DNA of 64,000 nt from Acidobacteria bacterium Mor1 (lineage in GTDB: Bacteria; Acidobacteriota; Polarisedimenticolia; Polarisedimenticolales; Polarisedimenticolaceae). This document shows positions 226-19,986 of the stretch, piece after piece. The stretch spans positions 5,027,275-5,091,274 of the forward strand of contig CP011806.1 of assembly GCA_001664505.1 (NCBI GenBank), written 5' to 3'. The position numbers and the translations under genes were made by a program. Position 1 is the first letter of the stretch. Every line of letters begins with the position of its first letter. The notes under the pieces are model-generated. The model searched no databases, was not told the DNA's origin, and worked only from the letters and a program-made list of their open reading frames with translations.

Positions 226-774
226 ATGTCGTATTCGCGCACGATCCGCCTCATGATGCTCGCCGCCGCCCTGGCTCTGCCGATGGGCGCCGTCGCCGAA
301 GACTCCAAGGACGCGAAGAAGAAGCCTGCGGCCAAGCCCGCCGCCAAGGCCAAGCAGGCCGAGGCCAAGCGGGAAGCGCCGATCGTGATCACCAACGACA
401 TGTTGGAGCAGCGCTTCGGCCCCTCGGCGGCTCCCGCGCCGACCCCGGCCCCAGCCGCCGGCCCGGCCGGCGCCGCCGCGCCCGGTGCCGCCGCACCCGG
501 AGCGCCGGGGCAGAAGCCGGTCAAGCCGGGCGGCAAGGCCGCCAAGCCGGCCACTCCCGAGGAGAAGGCCCAACGGGTGGCCGCCATCGAGAACGAGCTC
601 GAGCAGCTCCGCAAGCGGGTGCTCTCGATCAAGAACCCGTATCTCGCCGGCGTGGCCAAGGCCAGCGAAGTCGAGACCGAAGGCTCGAACAACGCCGAGC
701 GCCTGGCCCAGGTCCAGCAGCGCATCGCCGAGCTGGAAAAAGAGCTCGTCGGCCTCCGCGGCCCCGCCCGCTAG
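226..774 (+). CDS. secreted Ala/Pro-rich coiled-coil protein, unknown function
   Basis: The start is the ATG at 226, preceded by GCGGAGG at 214-220; the longer frame from 157 would put residues in front of the signal peptide. The 182-residue product starts with MSYSRTIRLMMLAAALALPM and a likely signal peptidase I site after AVA. A lysine/alanine-rich stretch follows (about residues 27-50), then a low-complexity Ala-Pro-Gly segment (about 72-110). The last 65 residues are a charged coiled-coil-like helix rich in Glu, Leu and Arg. The composition suggests an exported protein with a flexible linker and a helical tail, perhaps cell-wall or envelope associated. I do not recognise a family. Confidence 0.7.
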   Translation: MSYSRTIRLMMLAAALALPMGAVAEDSKDAKKKPAAKPAAKAKQAEAKREAPIVITNDMLEQRFGPSAAPAPTPAPAAGPAGAAAPGAAAPGAPGQKPVKPGGKAAKPATPEEKAQRVAAIENELEQLRKRVLSIKNPYLAGVAKASEVETEGSNNAERLAQVQQRIAELEKELVGLRGPAR

Positions 775-9146: not shown

Positions 9147-10067
9147 CTAGCGGAAGGGGCTCTTTCCCAGGGTCAGATCGGCCTTCATCGCGGCCACGAT
9201 TCCGGCGACCTTGAGCCTGCTGATCTTGGCTCCGGGGCCGTGCTCTTCCACGGCGTCGAGGGTGGCCCAGGCCAGCAGAACCGGCAGGGCGGTGAACTCC
9301 ACGGTGCCCCGGGGGGCGTCATGGCGGCGGAGCAGCTCGACGTACTCCTGGGCCACCGCCAGGTCCCGGCGGGCCAGGGCGAACACCTCCCCGCGATCGC
9401 AGCCGCCGAGAAAGTCCCGGCCCTCGACCACGTCGGTGGCGGTGTCCTTGAGGATATTGACCAGCTGGAGCGCCTCGCCGAAGGTCGCGGCTCGGGAGCG
9501 CAACTCTTCAAGTGTGTCCTGGAGCGGCGGCGCGCCGAGGATGAACAGCTCGGTCAGCATCTCGCCGACGATCCCCGCCACGGCGTAGCAGTAGCGCTTG
9601 AGTTCGTCGATCGACTCGAGCTCGAGCACCCGGTCGTCGTTTTGCCGGGCGCAGAACCCGGCCATCAGCTCGGTGGTGCGTATGGTGTGGGGCAGCACCT
9701 GCTCCAGGGCAGCGGGCGCCAGTTCCAGGGAGGCGGCGATGACCAGCGGGGTCTCTCGCATCAGCTCCATGTAGTCGTCATGTTCCAGCGGGGGCTCGGC
9801 GCTCCAGCGGTCGGCCAGCCGCCGCGCCTCGTCGGTCGAGGGCTTGCGCAACAGATCGGCGAAGGCGTTCAGTTCGTCGACCTGCCGCTCCTTGCTCCAG
9901 AGCGTCGCGTCTTCCAGGGTGTCGGCGATGCGGAACAGCAGGTAGGCCAGTTCGACCTCGTGGCGGGTCGGCTCGCGCAGCAGCGGAATCGAAAGGGCAA
10001 AGGTGCGGCTGGTGCGCTCCAGCAGCTCCGCCAATCGTTCCCGGGAGATCTCAGCGTTCCGGCTCAT
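9147..10067 (-). CDS. squalene synthase (farnesyl-diphosphate farnesyltransferase type)
   Basis: The start is the ATG at 10067 (MSRNAEISRER); the longer frame runs into the ipk end. The 306-residue protein belongs to the trans-isoprenyl diphosphate synthase head-to-head family. Two aspartate-rich motifs bind Mg-diphosphate: DTLED (residues 49-53) and DTATD within NILKDTATDVVEG (208-212). The block SRTFALSIPLL and the segment YCYAVAGIVGEMLTELF resemble single-enzyme squalene synthases of the eukaryotic/ERG9 type. It should join two farnesyl diphosphates into squalene for the cyclase in this operon. No HpnE-like oxidase or second synthase paralogue is present in the window. A phytoene-synthase activity is possible but less likely in this context. 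Confidence 0.9.
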   Translation of the reverse strand: MSRNAEISRERLAELLERTSRTFALSIPLLREPTRHEVELAYLLFRIADTLEDATLWSKERQVDELNAFADLLRKPSTDEARRLADRWSAEPPLEHDDYMELMRETPLVIAASLELAPAALEQVLPHTIRTTELMAGFCARQNDDRVLELESIDELKRYCYAVAGIVGEMLTELFILGAPPLQDTLEELRSRAATFGEALQLVNILKDTATDVVEGRDFLGGCDRGEVFALARRDLAVAQEYVELLRRHDAPRGTVEFTALPVLLAWATLDAVEEHGPGAKISRLKVAGIVAAMKADLTLGKSPFR

Positions 10068-10093
10068 TCGAGGTCCTCGGTTCCCCCCTGCAG

Positions 10094-10110
10094 GGCCGCC
10101 CAGGGCGGCC
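10094..10110 (-). other. small hairpin between ipk and squalene synthase
   Basis: GGCCGCC (10094-10100) and GGCGGCC (10104-10110) form a 7-bp GC-only stem with a three-base loop in the short gap between ipk and the squalene synthase gene. This is the widest gap in the run from fni to this gene, so the hairpin could slow or trim the transcript. There is no direct evidence of function. Confidence 0.3.
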
Positions 10111-10116
10111 ACCGAC

Positions 10117-10923
10117 TCATGGTACGACATGCGTCCCGGGAACGTCCTTGCCGGCCAGGGCCCGGCCCAGCCTACCGCGGACCCGGCCGTCGCAGATCAG
10201 CGACGGAATGTCCCGGGCCGCCAGCCGTCCGGCGGCGTCGAGCCTGTGGGCCATGCCCCCGGTGACGTCGGTTCCCCGGGAGCCGCCGACGGCCGCCCCC
10301 AGTCCCCGGAGGTCTTTGCGCCGCAGCCGGGAAAGGGTACGCCCCTCGCTGTCGTAGATCCCTTCGGTCTCGCCGAGCCAGAGCGCCCGTTGGATGCGGT
10401 AGCCCTTGCGCTGAAGCCGCGGCGCCAGGGCCAGGAACAGGTTCTCGGTGGAGCAGATCGAGGCGCCCCACGCCTCGTCCTGGACCACGTCCCCGTAGAT
10501 CACCGGCAGCATGCCCCGGTCGAGGGCGCCGCAAAGGGCGTCGAGGCCCACGGTGCGCGGTTTGCCGCTGCGGGAAGTCAGAAAGCTCGAAGGGGCCAGG
10601 GAGAAGGTGGGCGCTCCGGCGCGCAACAGCGCCGCGATCACGATGCGGTGCAGTGCGGCGGCGCGGTCCTGGGTCCGGGCCGCGCCCCGCAGGCCGCGGG
10701 CGTCCAGCGGCCCCTTGCCGACGCCGTGCTTGCGGGCGGCCACGTGGCCGAAGGAGCCGGCGCCGTGGCCGATCAGAAGCCCGCCACGAAGTTTGGGCAG
10801 CGCGCGGGCGATCTCCCGGGCCAGCCGATCCAGGGCATCCTGGCGAACCGACTCGACTCCGGTCTTGTCGGTGATCAGGCTGCCGCCCAGCTTGAGCAGG
10901 GTCAGGCGCGGCGTGCGGCTCAC
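10117..10923 (-). CDS. ipk: isopentenyl phosphate kinase
   Basis: The GTG start at 10923 overlaps the upstream stop by four bases (GTGA). The 268-residue protein is an amino-acid-kinase-fold enzyme. It has the nucleotide loop LKLGGSLIT (10-18), the glycine-rich loop GHGAGSFGH (52-60) and the acidic block YGDVV. A histidine closing the GAGSFGH loop is the catalytic residue that separates isopentenyl phosphate kinases from other members of the fold (His60 here). The carboxy-terminal half has the ATP-binding region around GTDVTGGMAHR. The reaction is isopentenyl phosphate plus ATP to IPP plus ADP, in the cytosol. IPK is typical of archaea, plants and some Chloroflexi. Its place beside a mevalonate decarboxylase and far from a phosphomevalonate kinase implies a biosynthetic rather than salvage role. 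Confidence 0.92.
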   Translation of the reverse strand: MSRTPRLTLLKLGGSLITDKTGVESVRQDALDRLAREIARALPKLRGGLLIGHGAGSFGHVAARKHGVGKGPLDARGLRGAARTQDRAAALHRIVIAALLRAGAPTFSLAPSSFLTSRSGKPRTVGLDALCGALDRGMLPVIYGDVVQDEAWGASICSTENLFLALAPRLQRKGYRIQRALWLGETEGIYDSEGRTLSRLRRKDLRGLGAAVGGSRGTDVTGGMAHRLDAAGRLAARDIPSLICDGRVRGRLGRALAGKDVPGTHVVP

Positions 10924-11924
10924 GCCAGATGCTCGTCGGAGAACCGGGGGCCGCGGCCGACGCCGTCGCGGATCACGCCGGCGATCCCCGGCACCCGGGA
11001 GACCGCATCGAAGACCTGCTCCTCGGATTCGGCCGGACAGATCACGTGCACGTTGGGCCCGGCGTCCATGGTGGCGGCGGCGGGGCAGCCCGCTTCGCGA
11101 AGCTCGCGCACCGTCTCCAGGATCGCCAGGGTAGGCGGCTTCCAGTAGAAGATCGCCGGCCGGGAGGACATGGCGATCAGGTGCAGCTCGATCGCCTCCT
11201 CTTCCAGCACCGGGGCCAGCAAGTCGAAGTCCCGTTCGGCGATGGCGCGGCGGGTCGCGTCTAATCGCGCCGGCAGCAGCTCACGGCGGCGGGCGAAGTG
11301 GGGGCTCGAGGCCGCCCGCCGATGGCCCTCCCGGGACGAGACCTTCTTCTCGCTGCTGTCGGCGAGGACCACCACGTCCTTGAGGTCCCAGTGATCCGCC
11401 GAGGCGATGACCTTGGCGTGGCAGCGATCGCCGCTTCCCTCCGCCGGCCACTCCAGGTAGCCGCCGGAGACCGAGCGGGAGGCCGAACCGGATCCGCTCA
11501 TACGCGCCAACTCCGATAGTTCGTCCTCGTCCGGTTCCAGACCCAGCGCCCGCGTTGCGGCGATGGCCAGCGCCGAGAAGCCCGAGGCGGAACTGGCGAT
11601 GCCCGCGCCCATGGGGAAGCTGTTGGCGGTGGCGATGCGGAAGCGGCCGCTGCGGCCGGTGTGCTCGCGAATCCGGTCGAGGTGGTTGCGCACGCCGCGC
11701 ACGAACGACTCGGGCGCATCGGTCAGGCTGCCGTCGGGCTGGGCCAGATGCACCTCGTCGTCGCCGCTCCCGTCGACGTGCTCGGCGGTGCAGCGGCTGT
11801 GGCAGGCGTCGAGGGTCATCGAGATCGACGGGTTGGTCGGGATCGCCCGGTCGAAGTCCACCGCGCCCCAGTACTTGATGAAGGCGATGTTCGCCGGCGA
11901 GATCACCGTCGCCTTGCCGCTCAT
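10920..11924 (-). CDS. mevalonate phosphate decarboxylase, predicted monophosphate-specific
   Basis: The start is the ATG at 11924, overlapping the mevalonate kinase stop by four bases (ATGA). The 334-residue GHMP-fold protein has the mevalonate-diphosphate-decarboxylase signatures NIAFIKYWG (12-20), the P-loop FPMGAGIASSASGF (103-116), SGSASRSVSGGY and MDAGPN, with catalytic Asp287. Two features differ from the classical enzyme. The lysine that follows KYWG, which I recall contacting the substrate diphosphate in Staphylococcus (Lys21), is Ala21 here. The usual S-x-GM block reads SSREGH, although Arg198 seems kept. With ipk next door and no phosphomevalonate kinase, I predict decarboxylation of 5-phosphomevalonate to isopentenyl phosphate, as in Roseiflexus. 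The classical MVA-PP decarboxylase remains the alternative. Confidence 0.85.
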   Translation of the reverse strand: MSGKATVISPANIAFIKYWGAVDFDRAIPTNPSISMTLDACHSRCTAEHVDGSGDDEVHLAQPDGSLTDAPESFVRGVRNHLDRIREHTGRSGRFRIATANSFPMGAGIASSASGFSALAIAATRALGLEPDEDELSELARMSGSGSASRSVSGGYLEWPAEGSGDRCHAKVIASADHWDLKDVVVLADSSEKKVSSREGHRRAASSPHFARRRELLPARLDATRRAIAERDFDLLAPVLEEEAIELHLIAMSSRPAIFYWKPPTLAILETVRELREAGCPAAATMDAGPNVHVICPAESEEQVFDAVSRVPGIAGVIRDGVGRGPRFSDEHLA

Positions 11925-12985
11925 AGGATCTCCAGCGTGAGTCCCGGGGCACCGAGAGCCACGGGATGGGCCTGGAACCGTTCGAGGAACGGCCACGGCC
12001 CGGGTGACTGCGGATGGTAGACCAGAAGGCAGCCTGCCGCCGAGCCGGTCAGGGTGCCCGCGCCGGTGATCTTGGCGGCCCCCCCTTCGGCTTCACAGCG
12101 GCGCACGATTTCGACGAGTTCCCCGGGGACCACGCCGAGGGATTCGAGCCCGCGCTGGAAGGTGCGGATTGCCTCGACGACCTCCCGGGTGTCGCCCCCC
12201 TCGGTCAGCCGGTCGCGCAGGGTCCGGGTTGCTCCGCCCATCCGTTCGAAGAGTTCGCGGCCCTGGTCGGGAAGCGTTCGCAGCCGGTCGCGCACGGTGC
12301 TGACCACCTGTCCGGTGCTCTCCGCCGGGCGGCCGGTGTCGTAGACCCGCATGCCGGCCAGGATGCCCCGGTCGGCGATCGCCAGCGGCCGGGCGGCCAG
12401 GGCGTCCCCGTCGCGCCGGGCCCACAGCGCGCCGCCGAGCAGCACCGTGGCGTGGTCGACCCCCGAGGGCATGCCGTGCTGCCGGCGCTCGACCTCCAGC
12501 ACCAGCGGGTCGAGGGTCGCGGCGTCGTGGGCCTTGCCGAGCCATGCGCGAAGGGCGCCGACGATGGCCACCGACGCGGCGGCGGAGCTTCCGAGGCCAC
12601 CCCCGATGGGGATCCCTGAATCGACTCTCAGTTTCAGCGCGGCGTCGACCTCCCCGGCGGCTTCGCCCAGGGCGATCTTGGTCAGGTGCGCCGGGTCGCC
12701 GTGTCCGACCTCGGCGAAGGCCTCGGCGCTGGGGTTTGCCGCGTAGCGCTCCCAGGCTTCCCGTGCTCGCCGGGTGTAGTCGCGGATCTCCTGCCAGTCG
12801 AGATCGAAGGCCATGTCGAGCTGGGGCAGATTGACCGCCACTCCGGGTTCGCTGCCCGGCTCGAGGGTCACGTCGAGGCGCAGGTCGACGGCGGTGGTCA
12901 GGGCGGGGTAGCCGTAGACCACGGCGTGCTCACCCATCAGGATGAGTTTCCCCGGGGCCGAGGCCCGCACGCGACGGTTTTGCAT
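11921..12985 (-). CDS. mvk: mevalonate kinase
   Basis: The 354-residue GHMP kinase starts at ATG 12985, 20 bases after the HMG-CoA reductase stop. It shows SAPGKLILMGEHAVVYG near the amino terminus (Lys13 in the substrate loop). The phosphate-binding loop is PIGGGLGSSAAAS (126-138), with a likely catalytic Asp177 in GMPSGVDHAT. The carboxy-terminal motif is KITGAGTLTGSAAGC. It phosphorylates mevalonate at O5 to give 5-phosphomevalonate. The GEHAVVYG block is the classic mevalonate-kinase form rather than phosphomevalonate kinase or mevalonate-3-kinase. Tight coupling with the decarboxylase (ATGA) supports balanced synthesis of the two enzymes. It is the only kinase of this fold in the window. 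Confidence 0.95.
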   Translation of the reverse strand: MQNRRVRASAPGKLILMGEHAVVYGYPALTTAVDLRLDVTLEPGSEPGVAVNLPQLDMAFDLDWQEIRDYTRRAREAWERYAANPSAEAFAEVGHGDPAHLTKIALGEAAGEVDAALKLRVDSGIPIGGGLGSSAAASVAIVGALRAWLGKAHDAATLDPLVLEVERRQHGMPSGVDHATVLLGGALWARRDGDALAARPLAIADRGILAGMRVYDTGRPAESTGQVVSTVRDRLRTLPDQGRELFERMGGATRTLRDRLTEGGDTREVVEAIRTFQRGLESLGVVPGELVEIVRRCEAEGGAAKITGAGTLTGSAAGCLLVYHPQSPGPWPFLERFQAHPVALGAPGLTLEIL

Positions 12986-13005: not shown

Positions 13006-14280
13006 TCAGGGGCGCGGCCCCTGCTTGTCGGTATCGACACCCCGGGCCAGCCGCTCGTGGGCGCTGGTCAGATCGCCCGAAGTGATCGCCGCCAGCAGCG
13101 AGAGTTCACCGGCAAGCACGATGCCGCCGAGGATCTCGGCCAGGCGCATGGTCGCCGCTCCGGGTTGAGCCGGATCGGGATCCACGTCGAGCAGCGACAG
13201 CGCCTCGCGTTGGGTGTCCAGCGCCGTTCCGCCACCGACGGTTCCCAGCGGAACGTCGGGCATCATGATCGAGAACAGCGCGCCGCCGTCCTCGATCGGC
13301 TCGATCATCGTCACGCCCATCGATCCCTCGCCGACGTGGGCCACATCCTGGCCGGTGGCGATGAAGAAGGCGGCAACGATGTTGGCGTAGTGGGCGTTGA
13401 AGCCCAGGGCCCCTGCGGCGATGGAGCCGAGCAGGTTCTTGCGGTACTGCATGTCGACGAATGCGTCCCGGTTGACCTTGAGGTTCTTGCGCAGCACCTC
13501 GGCCGAGAGCCGCACCTCGCAGTGGATCCGCTTGCCGCGGCCCTCGAGGAAGTTGATCGCCGCCGGTTTCTTGTCGACGCACTGGTTGCCCGAAAGGGCC
13601 ACGCACTCGATGCCGGTCTCGGGGTAGATCAGGTTGCGCACGACCCGGTCGCAGGCGATGGTCGCCATGTTCATGCCCATGGCGTCGCCGGTGGCGAAGC
13701 GGAAGCGCAGATAGACCGTCGAGCCCATGATCGTCGGGCGGATTTCCTTGAGCTTGCAGAAGCGGCTGGTGCCCTCTGCTACTTCGCGAATGCGATCGTG
13801 GTTGGCCTCGACCCAGGTGACGAAGTCCTCGCTCTCCGCGATACCGCCGGTGCGGAACACCGGCGCGCGGGTCATGCCCACATCCTCGACCCGGGAGACA
13901 ACGCCGCCGGCGGCGCGAATCGCCGAACAGCCGCGGTTGATGCTGGCCAGCAGCGCCCCTTCGGTGGTGGCCAGGGGCACGTAGATGCTCTGGTCGCGAT
14001 CCCGTCCGCGAACCCGCAGGGGCCCGGTGACTCCCAGGGGGATCTGGGCCACGCCGACGAAGTTCTCGCAGTGGCGCCCCGAGGCGCGCTCGGTGTCGAG
14101 GGAGTGGGTGCCGACGTGTTTCAACGTCTCCCCGGAGATCTCCTCGAGGAACTGGCGGCGGATCTCAGCCCGCTCGGCGGCGGAGAGATACTTGGGCAGG
14201 GCGTGGAGCCGCATCTCGCCGCGGACCACCGCTTGCACCAATTTGTCGAGCCCATCCCGGTTGCTGACGGCGATTTTCAT
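13006..14280 (-). CDS. hydroxymethylglutaryl-CoA reductase, class I type
   Basis: The 424-residue protein is HMG-CoA reductase without the membrane anchor. It has ENFVGVAQIPLGVTGPL, the catalytic glutamate in TTEGALLAS (Glu107) and the NADP-binding DAMGMN (199-204). The catalytic lysine is in VDKKPAAIN (237/238), the aspartate in ATGQDVAH (Asp312), and a carboxy-terminal His408 lies in SAHERLARG. The DAMGMN form and the terminal histidine loop match class I enzymes (archaea and eukaryotes), usually NADPH-dependent, rather than the class II enzymes of Pseudomonas type. It makes mevalonate from HMG-CoA and is the committed step of the operon. The ATG at 14280 overlaps the fni stop by four bases. 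Confidence 0.96.
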   Translation of the reverse strand: MKIAVSNRDGLDKLVQAVVRGEMRLHALPKYLSAAERAEIRRQFLEEISGETLKHVGTHSLDTERASGRHCENFVGVAQIPLGVTGPLRVRGRDRDQSIYVPLATTEGALLASINRGCSAIRAAGGVVSRVEDVGMTRAPVFRTGGIAESEDFVTWVEANHDRIREVAEGTSRFCKLKEIRPTIMGSTVYLRFRFATGDAMGMNMATIACDRVVRNLIYPETGIECVALSGNQCVDKKPAAINFLEGRGKRIHCEVRLSAEVLRKNLKVNRDAFVDMQYRKNLLGSIAAGALGFNAHYANIVAAFFIATGQDVAHVGEGSMGVTMIEPIEDGGALFSIMMPDVPLGTVGGGTALDTQREALSLLDVDPDPAQPGAATMRLAEILGGIVLAGELSLLAAITSGDLTSAHERLARGVDTDKQGPRP

Positions 14281-15311
14281 CGATTCACCTCACTCCAGGA
14301 ACGCACCTCGACCTGTTTGAGTTCCGTCACATTGCGGGCGCCGCAGCAGAACATCGAGATCTTGAGTTCCCGGACGGTCTGCTCGATCTTCTCGACCACC
14401 TTCTCGGTGGACTCGTTGGCGGCCAGCAGGAACTGGTAGGCCATGCCGACCAGGTCGGCACCGAGAGCGATGGACTTGGCGGCGTCGATGCCGCTGCGCA
14501 GCCCGCCGCTGCCGATCACCGTCATGCCGTCGATGGCGGCCAGCTCGCGGATCGAGCGGGTGGTCGGCACCCCCCAGTTGGCGAACAGGTCGCCGATGGC
14601 GATGTCCTCGGCCCGGTGACCCTCGATACGGGACCAGCTGGTGCCGCCGAGCCCGGCGGTGTCGATCACGCGGATGCCGGCGTCATGCAGCCGGCGGGCG
14701 GTCTTGCCGGAGATACCGCAGCCGATCTCCTTGATGATGATCGGGACCTCGAGCTGGGAAGCGATCTCGCCGATACGCTCGACCAGCCCCTTGAAGTTGC
14801 ACTGTCCCTCTGGCTGGATCGCCTCCTGCAGCACGTTGAGGTGCAGGTAGAGCGCGTCCGCCTCGATCATCTCCACGGCGCGGCGGCACTCCTCGATGCC
14901 GAAGCCGTAGTTGAACTGCACGGCGCCCAGGTTGCCCAGAAGCGGCACGTTGGGAGCCAGGGGGCGGATGCGGAAGCTCTCCTCGGTGGAGGTGTCTTCC
15001 AGCGCCTTGCGCTGGGAGCCGACGCCGCAGGCCACGCCGCACTGTTCGGCGGCGGCGGCCAGGTTGCGGTTGATCCGGGTCGCCTCGCCGGTGCCGCCGG
15101 TCATGCAGGAGATCAGGAGCGGCGCCGAAAGCGTGTGGCCCAGGAACTCGACGGAGGTGTCCACCTCGGCCAGGTCGATCTCGGGCAGCGCTTCGTGCTC
15201 GAGATAGATCTCGTCGAAGAACTTGCGCTCGAGCTGGTTCTTGGGGTCGAGGGCCAGCTCGATGTGCTCGGCCTTGCGATCGCGCTCTTCCATGGTGTCC
15301 ACGGGCTTCAC
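14277..15311 (-). CDS. fni: isopentenyl-diphosphate delta-isomerase, type 2 (FMN)
   Basis: The GTG start at 15311 has GGAG six bases upstream; an internal ATG six codons later is an alternative. The 344-residue protein is a TIM-barrel FMN enzyme with type 2 isomerase signatures. These are R-K-x-E-H-I near residue 12, SCMTGGTGE (flavin binding), GVGSQRKALED, LHLNVLQEAIQPEG (with the Mg-binding Glu region), KEIGCGIS and GSGGLRSGIDAAK. It interconverts IPP and DMAPP using reduced FMN, and so makes the allylic starter for farnesyl diphosphate. No polyprenyl diphosphate synthase is in the window, so that step must be encoded elsewhere. Confidence 0.95.
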   Translation of the reverse strand: MKPVDTMEERDRKAEHIELALDPKNQLERKFFDEIYLEHEALPEIDLAEVDTSVEFLGHTLSAPLLISCMTGGTGEATRINRNLAAAAEQCGVACGVGSQRKALEDTSTEESFRIRPLAPNVPLLGNLGAVQFNYGFGIEECRRAVEMIEADALYLHLNVLQEAIQPEGQCNFKGLVERIGEIASQLEVPIIIKEIGCGISGKTARRLHDAGIRVIDTAGLGGTSWSRIEGHRAEDIAIGDLFANWGVPTTRSIRELAAIDGMTVIGSGGLRSGIDAAKSIALGADLVGMAYQFLLAANESTEKVVEKIEQTVRELKISMFCCGARNVTELKQVEVRSWSEVNR

Positions 15312-15348: not shown

Positions 15349-16047
15349 TTACCGATTCTGCTCGCCTCGTTCCAGCCACTCGACGGCGAAATCCGCCAGC
15401 CGCTCCGAGGCCTCTTCGACCCGTCGCTTCAGCCGCAGCATTTCGCCGATCCGTCCCGGCCGCAGCAGCGCCTGCCGGACCACCGCGCCCCGGCGGATCC
15501 GGCCGTCGGCGTCGGAACATGCCGCCGGGTCGAAGGGCAGCGTCTCCTCGGCCGCGTCGCTGACCACCCGGGCGACCAGCATCTCGGCTCCGGCCGCCGT
15601 TGCTTCCCGGGCCAGGGTCGACGACTCGATGTCCACCACCGCCGGCTCGGCGTGCCGGCCCAGAACCCGTTGTTTTTCGGCCGCTGTGGCCAGCACTCGC
15701 CGGACCGAAACCACGGTTCCGCCCCGGACACCCGAGCAGCCTAGCGCACGCTGTAGCAGGGCGCGATTCGGCGGCGGGAGTGGTTCCTGTTCATCGTACA
15801 GGTTCTCGGCCACGATCAGGGCCCCGGGGCGCAATCCGGGCGAAAGCCCCCCGGCGACGCCGAGCACCGCGACGGTGGCGCCGGGCAGGGCGGCCAGGGC
15901 GGTTCGCAGGCCGGCGGCAGCCCGTTCCCGGCCATCTCCGGTGACCGCCAGCAGGGCAGGGTGGCCGGAGATCGCGCATTCGGTCAGCCGGCAGTCGCCG
16001 CTACGGGATTCCCGGGCCCCGGTCGCCCGGCTCCGCAGGACCGCCAT
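15349..16047 (-). CDS. hpnG: HpnG-like hopanoid nucleosidase/phosphorylase
   Basis: The protein is of the purine nucleoside phosphorylase/MTA nucleosidase fold. It has VLGVAGGLSPGL-type glycine loops, the stretch VVDIESSTLAREA that carries the active-site glutamate, and a carboxy-terminal helical tail. Beside hpnH and shc it fits HpnG, which removes adenine from adenosylhopane to give ribosylhopane. The 232-residue frame from ATG 16047 may be too short: in the same frame upstream lies LTGPVLFVSPLPEEM, which looks like the first beta-strand of the fold. There is no ATG, GTG or TTG before it, only a CTG at 16089-16087 that overlaps the hpnH stop (CTGA). The true start is therefore uncertain. 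Confidence 0.8.
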   Translation of the reverse strand: MAVLRSRATGARESRSGDCRLTECAISGHPALLAVTGDGRERAAAGLRTALAALPGATVAVLGVAGGLSPGLRPGALIVAENLYDEQEPLPPPNRALLQRALGCSGVRGGTVVSVRRVLATAAEKQRVLGRHAEPAVVDIESSTLAREATAAGAEMLVARVVSDAAEETLPFDPAACSDADGRIRRGAVVRQALLRPGRIGEMLRLKRRVEEASERLADFAVEWLERGEQNR

Positions 16048-16085: not shown

Positions 16086-17087
16086 TCAGCCGAGGAAGTT
16101 CCAGGCGGCGAGGCGCACCATGTCCTTGGGGCTCTTGCGCGACTCGGCGACCACCGACGCCTCGAACCCGCTGTGCATCGCGCAGTTCTGGCAGAGGTCA
16201 TCCTTGCGCGACTCCCAGTAGTCCCAGTCGGTGTCGTTCCAGAACTCTTCCCAGGAGTGGGTGTACTGCTTGCCGATCAGGTAGCAGGGGCCCTTCCAGC
16301 CGTTGGGCGTGAAGGTCACCGTGCTCCAGGGTGAGCAGTTGTAGTCGCGCATGCCGGCGGCGAACTCGAGGAACTGCGGCGTCGAGGTGATGCGGTAGTG
16401 CTTCGAGAAGCCGAGAATCTTCTTGAACTTGGCGTGGATGTCGTCACGGGCGAGGAACATGTCCCGCTGGACCGACTCGTACTGGTAGCCGGGCGAGATC
16501 AGCATGCCGTCGACGCCGAGGCTCTTGGTGTACTCGCAGAGTTCGCGCACCTCGTTGACGTCGGTCTCCTTGAAGACCGTGGTGTTGGTCATCACGTGGT
16601 AGCCGCGAGCCTTGGCCTGCTTGATCATCTCGATGGCGTGATCGAAGACCCCTTCCCGGGCACAGACGTGGTCGTGAGTCTCGCGCATCCCGTCGAGGTG
16701 CACGTTGATCGTCAGCCGTTTGTGGGGCGCGACCTTGTCGAAGACGTGCTTGTCGAGCAGCAGGGCGTTGGTGCACAGGTAGATGTGCCGCTTGCGGTCG
16801 ATGATGCCCTCGACCAGTTCCTTGAGCTCGGGGTAGATCGTCGGCTCGCCGCCGCAGATCGAGACCACCGGAGCCTCGCTCTGGTCCACCGCCTCGAGGC
16901 AGCGTTCCAGGGGCAGCCGGTCCTTCAGCTTGCCGGTGTGCCGTTCCACCGCGCAGCCCAGACAGGCCAGGTTGCAGGTGTAGAGCGGCTCGAGCATCAG
17001 CACGTACGGGTAGCGCTCGCGTCCGCGCATGGCCATCCGCGTCTGGTGCTTCATCATGTCGGTCGTGATGTGAATCGGGAATCGCAT
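16086..17087 (-). CDS. hpnH: adenosyl hopene transferase HpnH (radical SAM)
   Basis: The 333-residue protein starts at ATG 17087 with GAGAGG upstream. It is a radical SAM enzyme with the CxxxCxxC cluster motif at Cys38, Cys42 and Cys45 (TCNLACLGC). The SAM-binding GGEP motif follows (ICGGEPTIYPE). A carboxy-terminal cysteine pair (DLCQNCAMHSGFE) ends the family-typical domain. HpnH adds a 5'-deoxyadenosyl radical to diploptene, forming adenosylhopane, the first step of C35 extended hopanoids. Length and motifs match the family closely. It lies 14 bases downstream of shc and directly upstream of hpnG, so cyclisation and side-chain addition are encoded together. Confidence 0.96.
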   Translation of the reverse strand: MRFPIHITTDMMKHQTRMAMRGRERYPYVLMLEPLYTCNLACLGCAVERHTGKLKDRLPLERCLEAVDQSEAPVVSICGGEPTIYPELKELVEGIIDRKRHIYLCTNALLLDKHVFDKVAPHKRLTINVHLDGMRETHDHVCAREGVFDHAIEMIKQAKARGYHVMTNTTVFKETDVNEVRELCEYTKSLGVDGMLISPGYQYESVQRDMFLARDDIHAKFKKILGFSKHYRITSTPQFLEFAAGMRDYNCSPWSTVTFTPNGWKGPCYLIGKQYTHSWEEFWNDTDWDYWESRKDDLCQNCAMHSGFEASVVAESRKSPKDMVRLAAWNFLG

Positions 17088-17101: not shown

Positions 17102-19036
17102 TCAGGCGGTTTCCGCGACCAGCGGAGTCGCTGCCTCGCCGCGCCGGGCCTTGGACCAGGTCGCGAGGGCGAGCAGGGGGAAGTAGTTCGAGTAGAGGTG
17201 GTAGCGCAGGTAGAAGACGCTTGGGAACCCGGTGCCGGTCCAGCTTTCCTCGGCCCAGGAGCCGTCGTCGTGCTGGTTGCGAACCAGATAGTCCACCGCC
17301 CGTTGGGCCGCTTCGGAGCGTTCGTCTCCGGCGGCACAGAGCCCCATCAGCGCCCAGGCGGTCTGGGAAGGGCTGCTCGGGCCGCGGCCCTTGAGCATCG
17401 GGTCGTCGTAGCTCAGCGGTAGTTCACCGAAGCCGCCGTCGTCGTTCTGGCATTCCCGCAGCCAGGTGACCGCGCGATCCCGCCACTCACCGGCCATCTC
17501 GACACCGATGTAGCGCAGGCCCCAGAGGGACAGCCAGGTGCCGTACAGATAGTTGCAGCCCCAGCGTCCGTACCAGGAGCCGTCGGACTCCTGCTCGCGG
17601 CGCAGGAACTCGATGGCCATCCGCGCCGGAGGGTACTCGGGGCCGTGGCCCATGTGGGCCAGGGTCTCGAGGCCGCGGGCGGTCAGATCCGAGGTGCTCG
17701 GATCGATCATCGCGTTGTGATCGGCAAAGGGAACGTGACAGAGGATCTCCTTGTCACAGTCCTTGTCGAAGGCACCCCAGCCGCCGTCCTTGTTCTGCAT
17801 GCTCACATGCCAGACGTGGCCTTCGTAGATCGCCTGGATGCGTTCGGCTTCTTCGGCCCCCTCGCTCAGGCGCACCTTGCTCAGGGCGGTGAGCACCTGG
17901 CTGGTGGTGTCGCAGTCCGGGTAATAGGGGTTGGCGTACTCGAAGAACCAACCGGGAGCCTGACTCCGGCCGTCCTTGAGCTTGATCTTCCAGTCGCCGG
18001 CGTCGTGGCCGCGGCGGCTCATCATCCAGCGGGCGGCCTTTTGAAGCCGCGGGTGATCTTCAGGCAACCCGGATTCGGCCAGGGCGTTGACCGAGATCGC
18101 GGTATCCCACACCGGCGAGAAGCAGGGCTGTACCCGCAGGGTGTCCCCCTCTTCGATGGTCAGCCGCTGCAGTTCCTTGTACTGGTCCTGAATGACCGGG
18201 TGATCCAGGGGGTAGCCCATGGCGCGCAGGCCGATGATCGTGTTGACGATCGGCGGGAAGATCGCGCCGAGGCCGTGGCTGCCGTCGAGGCGCTCGAGGA
18301 CCCAGCGTTCGGCGGCCTTGAGGGCGATCTGCCGGGTCGGCTTGACCGGGAGTTTCTCGAGAATCTTGAGTCCGCGGTCCACCGCCTGGAAGAAGGCGCC
18401 CCACAGGCCGGTCTTGGCCGGGACCGCGCGCCCGCCCCGCAGCTCGGGAATCTGCGCGTGGGCCGGCACCGGGCAGTGGGGCTTGAGCGCCCAGATCATG
18501 CTCAGCGGCACCACGATCGCCCGGGACCACGAAGACATCTCGTAGATGTTGAAGTAGAACCAGCGGGGCAGCAGGATGATCTCCGGCGGTACCGCCGGGG
18601 CGTTCTTCCACTCGTACTGGCCGAAGATCGACAGATAGAGCTTGGTGAACGAGTTGCAGGCGTCGAGTCCGCCGAGATCGAGGATCTTGCGCCGCGCCCG
18701 CTGCATGTGCGGGGACTCGGGATCGTCCCCCACCAGCTTCAATACGAAGTAAGCCTTGGCCGATGCGCTGACCTCGGCGGGACCGCCGGGGTAGATCGAC
18801 CAACCGCCGTGATCGGCTTGTTGTTGTCTGAGATTGTTCGCCGCTTTTCGCACTCTGGGGTCTTCGGTCTTCCCCATGAAGTGCATGGCGAGGATGTACT
18901 CGGACTCGAGGATCGTGTCGCCCTCGAGCTCTCCACACCAATGACCGTCTTCTTTCTGGATCGAAAGCAGATAGTCCTGCGCCGATCGAATGGCGCGCTG
19001 GGCCTCAGGGTCCAGATTGAGATGGGGAACGCTCAC
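17102..19036 (-). CDS. shc: squalene-hopene cyclase with altered DXDD motif
   Basis: I chose the GTG at 19036 because GGAGG (19049-19045) lies eight bases upstream; the frame opens six codons earlier at 19054. The 644-residue terpene cyclase has repeated QW motifs, NIYEMSSWSRA, GSWYGRWGCNY and a carboxy-terminal GFPSVFYLRYHLY carrying the aromatic active-site residues. The catalytic acid motif reads D374-C375-D376-T377, where A. acidocaldarius has DVDD at the same numbers. The proton-donating Asp376 is kept and the last Asp is replaced by Thr. The DNA reads GAC TGC GAC ACC, with no sign of error. It should cyclise squalene to hopene or a related triterpene at the membrane. It opens the operon and lies divergent from TetR. 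Confidence 0.95.
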   Translation of the reverse strand: MSVPHLNLDPEAQRAIRSAQDYLLSIQKEDGHWCGELEGDTILESEYILAMHFMGKTEDPRVRKAANNLRQQQADHGGWSIYPGGPAEVSASAKAYFVLKLVGDDPESPHMQRARRKILDLGGLDACNSFTKLYLSIFGQYEWKNAPAVPPEIILLPRWFYFNIYEMSSWSRAIVVPLSMIWALKPHCPVPAHAQIPELRGGRAVPAKTGLWGAFFQAVDRGLKILEKLPVKPTRQIALKAAERWVLERLDGSHGLGAIFPPIVNTIIGLRAMGYPLDHPVIQDQYKELQRLTIEEGDTLRVQPCFSPVWDTAISVNALAESGLPEDHPRLQKAARWMMSRRGHDAGDWKIKLKDGRSQAPGWFFEYANPYYPDCDTTSQVLTALSKVRLSEGAEEAERIQAIYEGHVWHVSMQNKDGGWGAFDKDCDKEILCHVPFADHNAMIDPSTSDLTARGLETLAHMGHGPEYPPARMAIEFLRREQESDGSWYGRWGCNYLYGTWLSLWGLRYIGVEMAGEWRDRAVTWLRECQNDDGGFGELPLSYDDPMLKGRGPSSPSQTAWALMGLCAAGDERSEAAQRAVDYLVRNQHDDGSWAEESWTGTGFPSVFYLRYHLYSNYFPLLALATWSKARRGEAATPLVAETA

Positions 19037-19404
19037 GAACAGGTCCTCCAGCACACGTTGACTCGCGAAAGTTTGCCCACCGGGCCGCAGTGGTTACCCC
19101 CGGATTCCAGCCTGATCCAAGGCAATCCGGTATGAAGGTCCCCGATTAGACGGATTTGCCCACCGCGTTGTTTCAAAACCTCGCCGCACCGCTTGGAATT
19201 CCCACCGGTTTTGGCGCGAACGTCGAAAAGACTATACACGATTCTGATGCGGAATCATCCGCGGCTGTGAGGCTAACCCCGTTAACGCTGTACACGTTAC
19301 GGCGACGACCGCGAGAGCTTTCAACACTTCGCACTCCCCGGCCGGAGGGGACCGGGGACCGGGGCGGGCCCCCGGCATGGGTTTGACGCTATGCTGAGGG
19401 CCGT
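19037..19404. other. 368-base divergent intergenic region between shc and tetR
   Basis: No open frame with coding character lies here. The stretch is less GC-rich than its neighbours, especially 19160-19260, as expected for promoters facing both ways. On the minus strand TTGAAA followed 20 bases later by TCTAAT (about 19150-19180) is a poor promoter match. The best structured element is the imperfect palindrome around 19291 described separately. I saw no riboswitch or tRNA. Confidence 0.5.
19280..19301. promoter_or_regulatory. candidate TetR operator
   Basis: The right arm ACACGTTACG (19292-19301) is the exact reverse complement of the left arm once two single bases (T at 19283 or its neighbour, and C at 19288) are removed. 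The centre is the palindrome TGTACA (19289-19294). Palindromes of about 20 bases between divergent genes are typical TetR sites. The unequal arms weaken the case. Confidence 0.35.
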
Positions 19405-19986
19405 ATGAGCACCGGGAACCTCAGAGACCGCATATTCGAGGCCGCCGAGGACCTCTACCTGCGCGAGGGGCCGGAGGCGCTGTCCATGCGCCGGGTGGCC
19501 GAGGCGGTGGGCGTCAGCGCCCCCGCGATCTACCGCTACTTCGAGAACAAGGAAGAGCTGCTCAACGAGATCGTGATGCACGGTCTCAAGATCCTCGAGA
19601 GCTACATGGAGCCGGCCCTGGCAGCCGATACTCCCTTCGGCGTGCTGACCCGGGTCATCGAGCAGTACCTGGAGTTCGGCCTGGCCCAGCCGCGCTACTT
19701 CGATTTCGCCTTTCTCGCGCCCAGCCGCGACATTTCCATTGCCGGCGACAACGTAACCCAGCACAACTGGTCCACCTTCAAGCAGGTTCGGGACACCGTT
19801 GCCGCCTGCATCGAGGACGGCACCCTGCGGGAGGGGTCGTCGATGGAGGTTGCGATCACCATCTGGGGCGAGGTCCACGGACTGATGATCCTGTGGCGCA
19901 CCGGGCGGCTGGGTCCCGATGAGGCGCTCTTCCGCAAGACCTACCACAACTGCGTTCAGCGGATGTTCGCCGGCCTCAAGGCCTGA
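19405..19986 (+). CDS. TetR family transcriptional regulator
   Basis: The 193-residue protein has a TetR helix-turn-helix at residues 7-53, with the family block MRRVAEAVGVSAPAIYRYFENKEEL. An all-helical ligand domain with no recognisable subfamily follows, roughly residues 60-190. The start is ATG 19405, preceded by GAGGG. It is divergent from shc, the first gene of the isoprenoid/hopanoid operon, and a GC-stem terminator follows its stop, so it is a monocistronic local regulator. I infer that it represses the operon and senses a lipid, acyl-CoA or isoprenoid, but nothing in the sequence identifies the ligand. Autoregulation through the shared intergenic region is likely. Confidence 0.9.
   Translation: MSTGNLRDRIFEAAEDLYLREGPEALSMRRVAEAVGVSAPAIYRYFENKEELLNEIVMHGLKILESYMEPALAADTPFGVLTRVIEQYLEFGLAQPRYFDFAFLAPSRDISIAGDNVTQHNWSTFKQVRDTVAACIEDGTLREGSSMEVAITIWGEVHGLMILWRTGRLGPDEALFRKTYHNCVQRMFAGLKA

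Follow-up and report, generated by a model that had tools for sequence, protein, structure and literature searches.

The window is a 64,000-nucleotide stretch of the Acidobacteria bacterium Mor1 genome (contig CP011806.1). It contains a squalene-hopene cyclase (SHC) homologue at the head of a set of hopanoid and isoprenoid genes that run in the same direction, next to a divergently transcribed regulator. The genes, and three features within the cyclase gene, are as follows, with codons numbered for the 644-residue window protein and A. acidocaldarius numbering given where it differs.

19405..19986, plus strand: divergent TetR-family regulator, possible operon regulator (PF00440)
17102..19036, minus strand: squalene-hopene cyclase homologue with D-C-D-T replacing DXDD (TIGR01507, SHC Pfam domains, model fold)
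18008..18013, minus strand: clade-exclusive Arg-Gly, codons 342-343 (A. acidocaldarius 344-345), in 0/104 other cyclases
17903..17917, minus strand: D-C-D-T-T motif, codons 374-378 (GAC TGC GAC ACC ACC), T377 being ACC at 17906-17908
17807..17818, minus strand: clade-exclusive His, codons 407 and 410 (A. acidocaldarius 404 and 407), in 0/104 other cyclases
16086..17087, minus strand: hpnH, adenosyl-hopene transferase, radical SAM (TIGR03470, 383 bits, cut-off 225)
15349..16047, minus strand: hpnG-like hopanoid-associated phosphorylase (TIGR03468, 107.7 bits, below the cut-off of 187)
14277..15311, minus strand: type 2 isopentenyl-diphosphate isomerase, idi2 (TIGR02151, 407 bits)
13006..14280, minus strand: HMG-CoA reductase, NADPH type (TIGR00533, 464 bits)
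11921..12985, minus strand: mevalonate kinase (TIGR00549, 163.9 bits, cut-off 163.05)
10920..11996, minus strand: mevalonate (di)phosphate decarboxylase, true start probably inside the ORF (TIGR01240, 219.5 bits; MVD Pfam)
10117..10923, minus strand: isopentenyl phosphate kinase (NF040647, 156 bits, cut-off 120)
9147..10130, minus strand: squalene synthase-like protein (PF00494, 105 bits; best NCBIfam TIGR01559, 86.7 bits, below cut-off)

The genes downstream of the cyclase thus follow in the order hpnH, hpnG-like, idi2, HMG-CoA reductase, mevalonate kinase, decarboxylase, isopentenyl phosphate kinase and squalene synthase-like, separated by short gaps or overlaps. No epoxidase is present in this operon. 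A PADLOC search found nothing.

The cyclase ORF encodes 644 amino acids from a GTG start; an in-frame GTG further upstream, at 19054, would add 6 residues and give a protein of 650. The reading frame is intact and its codon-position GC pattern matches that of the neighbouring genes. In a profile search the protein matches TIGR01507 over residues 12-631 with 691 bits (cut-off 431.1), as a full-length SHC does, and both SHC Pfam domains are present together with a weak prenyltransferase-repeat match. The AlphaFold2 model (pLDDT 89.8) has the two-barrel fold of class II cyclases and superimposes on 1sqc, 2sqc and 3sqc with Z scores of 53-54 and an rmsd of 1.5-1.6 A. It is the only SHC-family gene in the genome, a single contig of 5.985 Mb that is 99.98% complete. 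The oxidosqualene cyclase profile TIGR03463 gives only 249 bits against a cut-off of 851, and the local sequence PDCDTTSQ retains Asp at 374, which the D-C-T-A-E motif of oxidosqualene cyclases lacks. Profile scores and operon content together rule out a drift toward that class. An AstC-type HAD-like cyclase was also rejected, the HAD phosphatase and single beta-type domain architecture being absent from a protein of 650 residues with just SHC domains.

The D-C-D-T at 374-377 reported by the original prediction in place of DXDD is indeed encoded, on the minus strand, which that prediction did not mention. In the phmmer alignment the columns align with D374, V375, D376, D377 and T378 of the A. 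acidocaldarius enzyme (1gsz), so the window numbering and A. acidocaldarius numbering coincide at the motif. The A. acidocaldarius sequence used in the alignments was entered by hand; the 1gsz alignment allows residues 9-627 of it to be verified. The middle aspartate, the proton-donor position, was correctly said to be retained (D376, codon GAC), as is Asp374, both expected of an SHC. The correspondence with the oxidosqualene cyclase motif also holds, with alignment as D376-C377-T378. The ACC codon of Thr377 is two substitutions away from either Asp codon. The presence of the change in four further genomes as well excludes a sequencing error, and the intact frame likewise speaks against a pseudogene. 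Residues D374, D376, T378, W312, D313, D442, D447 and Y495 are retained, as are W489, F365, W169, F601, F605, Y609 and Y612. Apart from a few residues exclusive to the Thr377 enzymes, described below, all tabulated catalytic and cavity residues are identical to those of relatives with Asp377. Position 451, a His in A. acidocaldarius, is Arg both here and in most other bacterial SHCs aligned. Because Thr377 departs from a strict DXDD, the protein is better called a variant that arose within the SHCs than a canonical member.

Thr377 was found in 5 of 109 aligned cyclases, and each of the other 104, which include 20 further acidobacterial ones, has Asp. The carriers are four genomes of one class of Acidobacteriota (the window genome, G016, G019 and G034) and one Planctomycetota MAG. 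The three relatives, out of 60, have DCDTT cyclases at 61-64% identity to the window protein; the planctomycete locus (L011, 8001-9836 in genome G060) encodes a DLDTT cyclase at 64% identity, accompanied by hpnH, hpnA and an hpnG-like stretch. It was found in a scan of 84,980 GTDB species genomes, from which the best 80 of 574 loci were kept. Pattern surveys at genome scale covered Acidobacteriota (396 genomes) and Planctomycetota (392). A strict DNA pattern for the motif, accepting Asp, Glu, Thr, Ala, Asn or Lys at 377, gave 97 sites in 86 of the 396 acidobacterial genomes. Four of these have a Thr (AC) codon, in the same four genomes as above, 93 are of Asp type and no other codons occurred; the 93 begin with GA, which leaves Asp or Glu by the two bases printed, and every one that was translated has Asp. 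Among the planctomycete genomes, for which the Asp377 form was left out of the count, the Thr form was present in 1 of 392, that of L011. A loose YPDxDT pattern gave many matches in the 396 Acidobacteriota genomes, and those fetched from outside the class were not cyclases. G034 holds two hopene cyclases, a DCDTT enzyme adjoining hpnH and a DVDDS enzyme on a short contig (L172 and L174).

The phylogeny of the cyclases does not support the proposal that the site has drifted. In a tree of 37 cyclases built with motif columns 374-380 removed, the five Thr377 enzymes form one clade (100/99), and a single change from Asp to Thr suffices. The branch of the window cyclase has an ordinary length (0.35; median 0.31). 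In an rpoB tree, the window genome groups with G005, G007, G016, G019 and G034 (100/99) within a clade of named Acidobacteriota (100/100), and the genome of L011 groups with named Planctomycetota (100/100). The distribution of Thr377 does not simply follow the species tree, since Asp377 cyclases occur in G005, of the same family as the window genome, and in G007, of the same order. Its presence in a planctomycete indicates either horizontal transfer or a misbinned contig of 266 kb. Besides its Asp377 hopene cyclase, G007 encodes a 1150-residue ORF (L175, 6989-10441, plus strand) that joins squalene epoxidase and oxidosqualene-cyclase-type domains, with the motif WPVSDCTAE.

The clade also shares other residues. 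Of 304 positions that are invariant within it, five carry a residue absent from all 104 other cyclases: R344, G345, T377, H404 and H407 in A. acidocaldarius numbering, corresponding to window residues 342, 343, 377, 407 and 410. At position 344 the 104 non-clade enzymes carry either Glu or Gln without exception. Pro370 was dropped from this set, as two Asp377 cyclases also carry it. All five residues lie within window positions 342-410; given Thr377, the probability that the other four fall so close by chance is about 4e-5. In the secondary structure of the model the motif opens a helix (375-385), both histidines are in the later part of the next helix (394-412), and R342-G343 come after the preceding helix (329-340). 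By topology, the motif, the His pair and the R342-G343 ends should share one face of the alpha/alpha barrel.

The gene neighbourhood is that of a hopanoid producer. HpnH is the adenosylhopane synthase, and its substrate is diploptene. In all five Thr377 lineages hpnH lies directly downstream of the cyclase, and hpnA adjoins hpnH in G019 and L011. A closely matching operon, running from the cyclase to squalene synthase, is found in G007, whose cyclase has Asp377. The window HpnH shows a similarity of 68-75% to HpnH proteins beside Asp377 cyclases and 73-76% to those beside Thr377 cyclases; it is thus equally similar to both sets, and nothing suggests that its substrate has changed. The products of hpnH and hpnG catalyze known steps from diploptene to bacteriohopanetetrol (PMC5462960). 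A homologue of the TetR-family regulator, with 43-44% identity, also divergently adjoins the Thr377 cyclase in G016 and G019, and the gene possibly regulates the hopanoid operon. No clear common palindrome that could serve as a shared operator was found between the cyclase and TetR genes.

The remaining operon genes concern precursor supply. In the 99.98% complete window genome dxs is absent (best partial match 67 bits against a cut-off of 466) and dxr gave no match, and a Gram-positive-type phosphomevalonate kinase was not found beyond a weak match to mevalonate kinase itself. Both dxs and dxr are present in G005, G007, G016, G019, G034 and the genome of L011. Direct reading of the decarboxylase shows Ala after the Gly of KYWG, the place held in classical decarboxylases by Lys21 (residue table, PMC3857490). 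In view of these absences, the isopentenyl phosphate kinase and the decarboxylase Ala, the operon appears to encode an alternative mevalonate pathway that is the only isoprenoid route of this acidobacterium. In 2013 Chloroflexi was the only bacterial phylum with the mevalonate pathway for which isopentenyl phosphate kinase was recorded (PMC3857490), and every genome of a cultivated acidobacterium examined in a 2017 survey was reported to have the non-mevalonate pathway (PMC5462960). The mevalonate block is found in the hopanoid operons of the window genome and G007. In the Thr377 operons of G019 (L170, 3643-5718), which carries a second dxs elsewhere, and G016 (L171, 9744-11696), dxs stands beside squalene synthase in its place. 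Precursor-supply genes thus seem to be exchanged within the hopanoid operon.

In view of the above, we consider it probable that the protein is a working SHC that supplies diploptene to HpnH by means of a compensated DXDT acid motif. A single DXDD-to-DXDT change of the acid motif would have taken place in the ancestor of the small clade. In the DXDD motif of SHCs and diterpene cyclases the acid is cooperative and the proton comes from the middle Asp (PMC11795633). In the variant, D376 would still donate the proton to squalene, and T377, together with T378, D374 and Arg451, may hold and polarise D376 in place of the Asp374/Asp377 pair. R344, G345, H404 and H407 could be second-shell changes, close to the motif in space, that compensate for the lost carboxylate. 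Since the cavity otherwise matches that of the Asp377 relatives, cyclisation is proposed to take its normal course up to the pentacyclic hopenyl cation. The hpnH, hpnA and hpnG neighbours point to hopene as the product. Against this, loss of Asp377 alone is harmful: the D377C mutant of the A. acidocaldarius enzyme has low activity and forms a monocyclic product (PMC6127371). For AstC, a naturally occurring D-x-D-T motif in which the middle Asp is the acid has been reported (PMC13244436).

Three other readings of Thr377 were weighed. That the cyclase is a decaying or inactive paralogue is very improbable: the residue lost is otherwise nearly invariant, but the intact frame, neighbour-like codon-position GC pattern and ordinary branch length speak against decay, Thr377 persists in five lineages (61-64% identity), and the gene heads an intact operon as the sole copy in the genome. 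Thr377 could also be neutral, with Arg451 and its network already keeping D376 acidic and the other exclusive residues being hitch-hikers that compensate for nothing. Shared ancestry could by itself explain why these residues occur together, since the five members descend from one change and are not independent evidence; moreover, functional enzymes have Cys (oxidosqualene cyclases) or Thr (AstC) at this position. However, all 104 other cyclases have Asp377, mostly along with Arg451, so the position is not neutral there, and the exclusive residues are grouped near the motif along the sequence instead of being scattered. Neutrality, to which we assign a minor but real share of the probability, is compatible with hopene as the product and departs from the reading of a compensated acid motif solely in what the extra residues do.

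The original prediction suggested an unusual triterpene as the product. On this reading the enzyme would terminate cyclisation early or in another way, and the triterpene could be monocyclic, of the 3-deoxyachilleol type. The premise that replacing Asp377 in A. acidocaldarius SHC alters the product is accurate, as in D377C monocyclic 3-deoxyachilleol takes the place of hopene and activity falls strongly (PMC6127371), and the near invariance of Asp377 elsewhere fits the same idea. The proposal nevertheless extrapolates from point mutants of another enzyme, and D377C lacks the other clade-exclusive residues. The context argues against it: all five clade members adjoin hpnH in ordinary hopanoid operons, several with hpnA or hpnG, HpnH has not diverged, the cavity residues are those of Asp377 relatives, and the window genome has no second SHC to supply hopene. 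A non-hopane product is therefore unlikely. The further possibility that HpnH extends such a triterpene, giving non-hopane side-chain lipids in Acidobacteriota, is regarded as distinctly doubtful. The clade thus represents a real and conserved DXDT variant that most likely still makes hopene. Neither a DXDT squalene-hopene cyclase nor a product assay of a DCDT/DXDT squalene cyclase was found in the openly accessible literature that was searched.

In SHCs and class II diterpene cyclases, the final Asp of DXDD is regarded as belonging to the catalytic acid. A natural clade that lacks it, with a hopanoid operon and exclusive residues, makes its role and its replacement directly testable, and could serve as a basis for engineering SHCs for acid catalysis. 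A strict DXDD filter would overlook some likely hopanoid producers. Compared with A. acidocaldarius SHC (1sqc, 2sqc, 3sqc, 1gsz; TIGR01507), the window cyclase has the same fold and full length, about 40% identity, and the same D376, D374 and cavity aromatics, but differs in Thr377, R344, G345, H404, H407 and Arg451 (His in A. acidocaldarius). It has lost the same Asp as D377C, although the latter is a laboratory mutant made without the co-inherited changes (PMC6127371). Oxidosqualene cyclases such as lanosterol synthase (1w6k) have the same fold and also lack Asp at the 377 equivalent, which is Cys; the window cyclase differs from them in its D374 and SHC profile match, with no epoxidase in the operon and no second cyclase in the genome. 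The AstC-type HAD-like cyclases, fungal AstC and bacterial AsDMS, share the natural D-x-D-T acid motif reported for AstC, a resemblance in how the acid may work only, as they act on a sesquiterpene diphosphate, have a single beta-type domain fused to a HAD phosphatase and are only remotely similar (PMC13244436).
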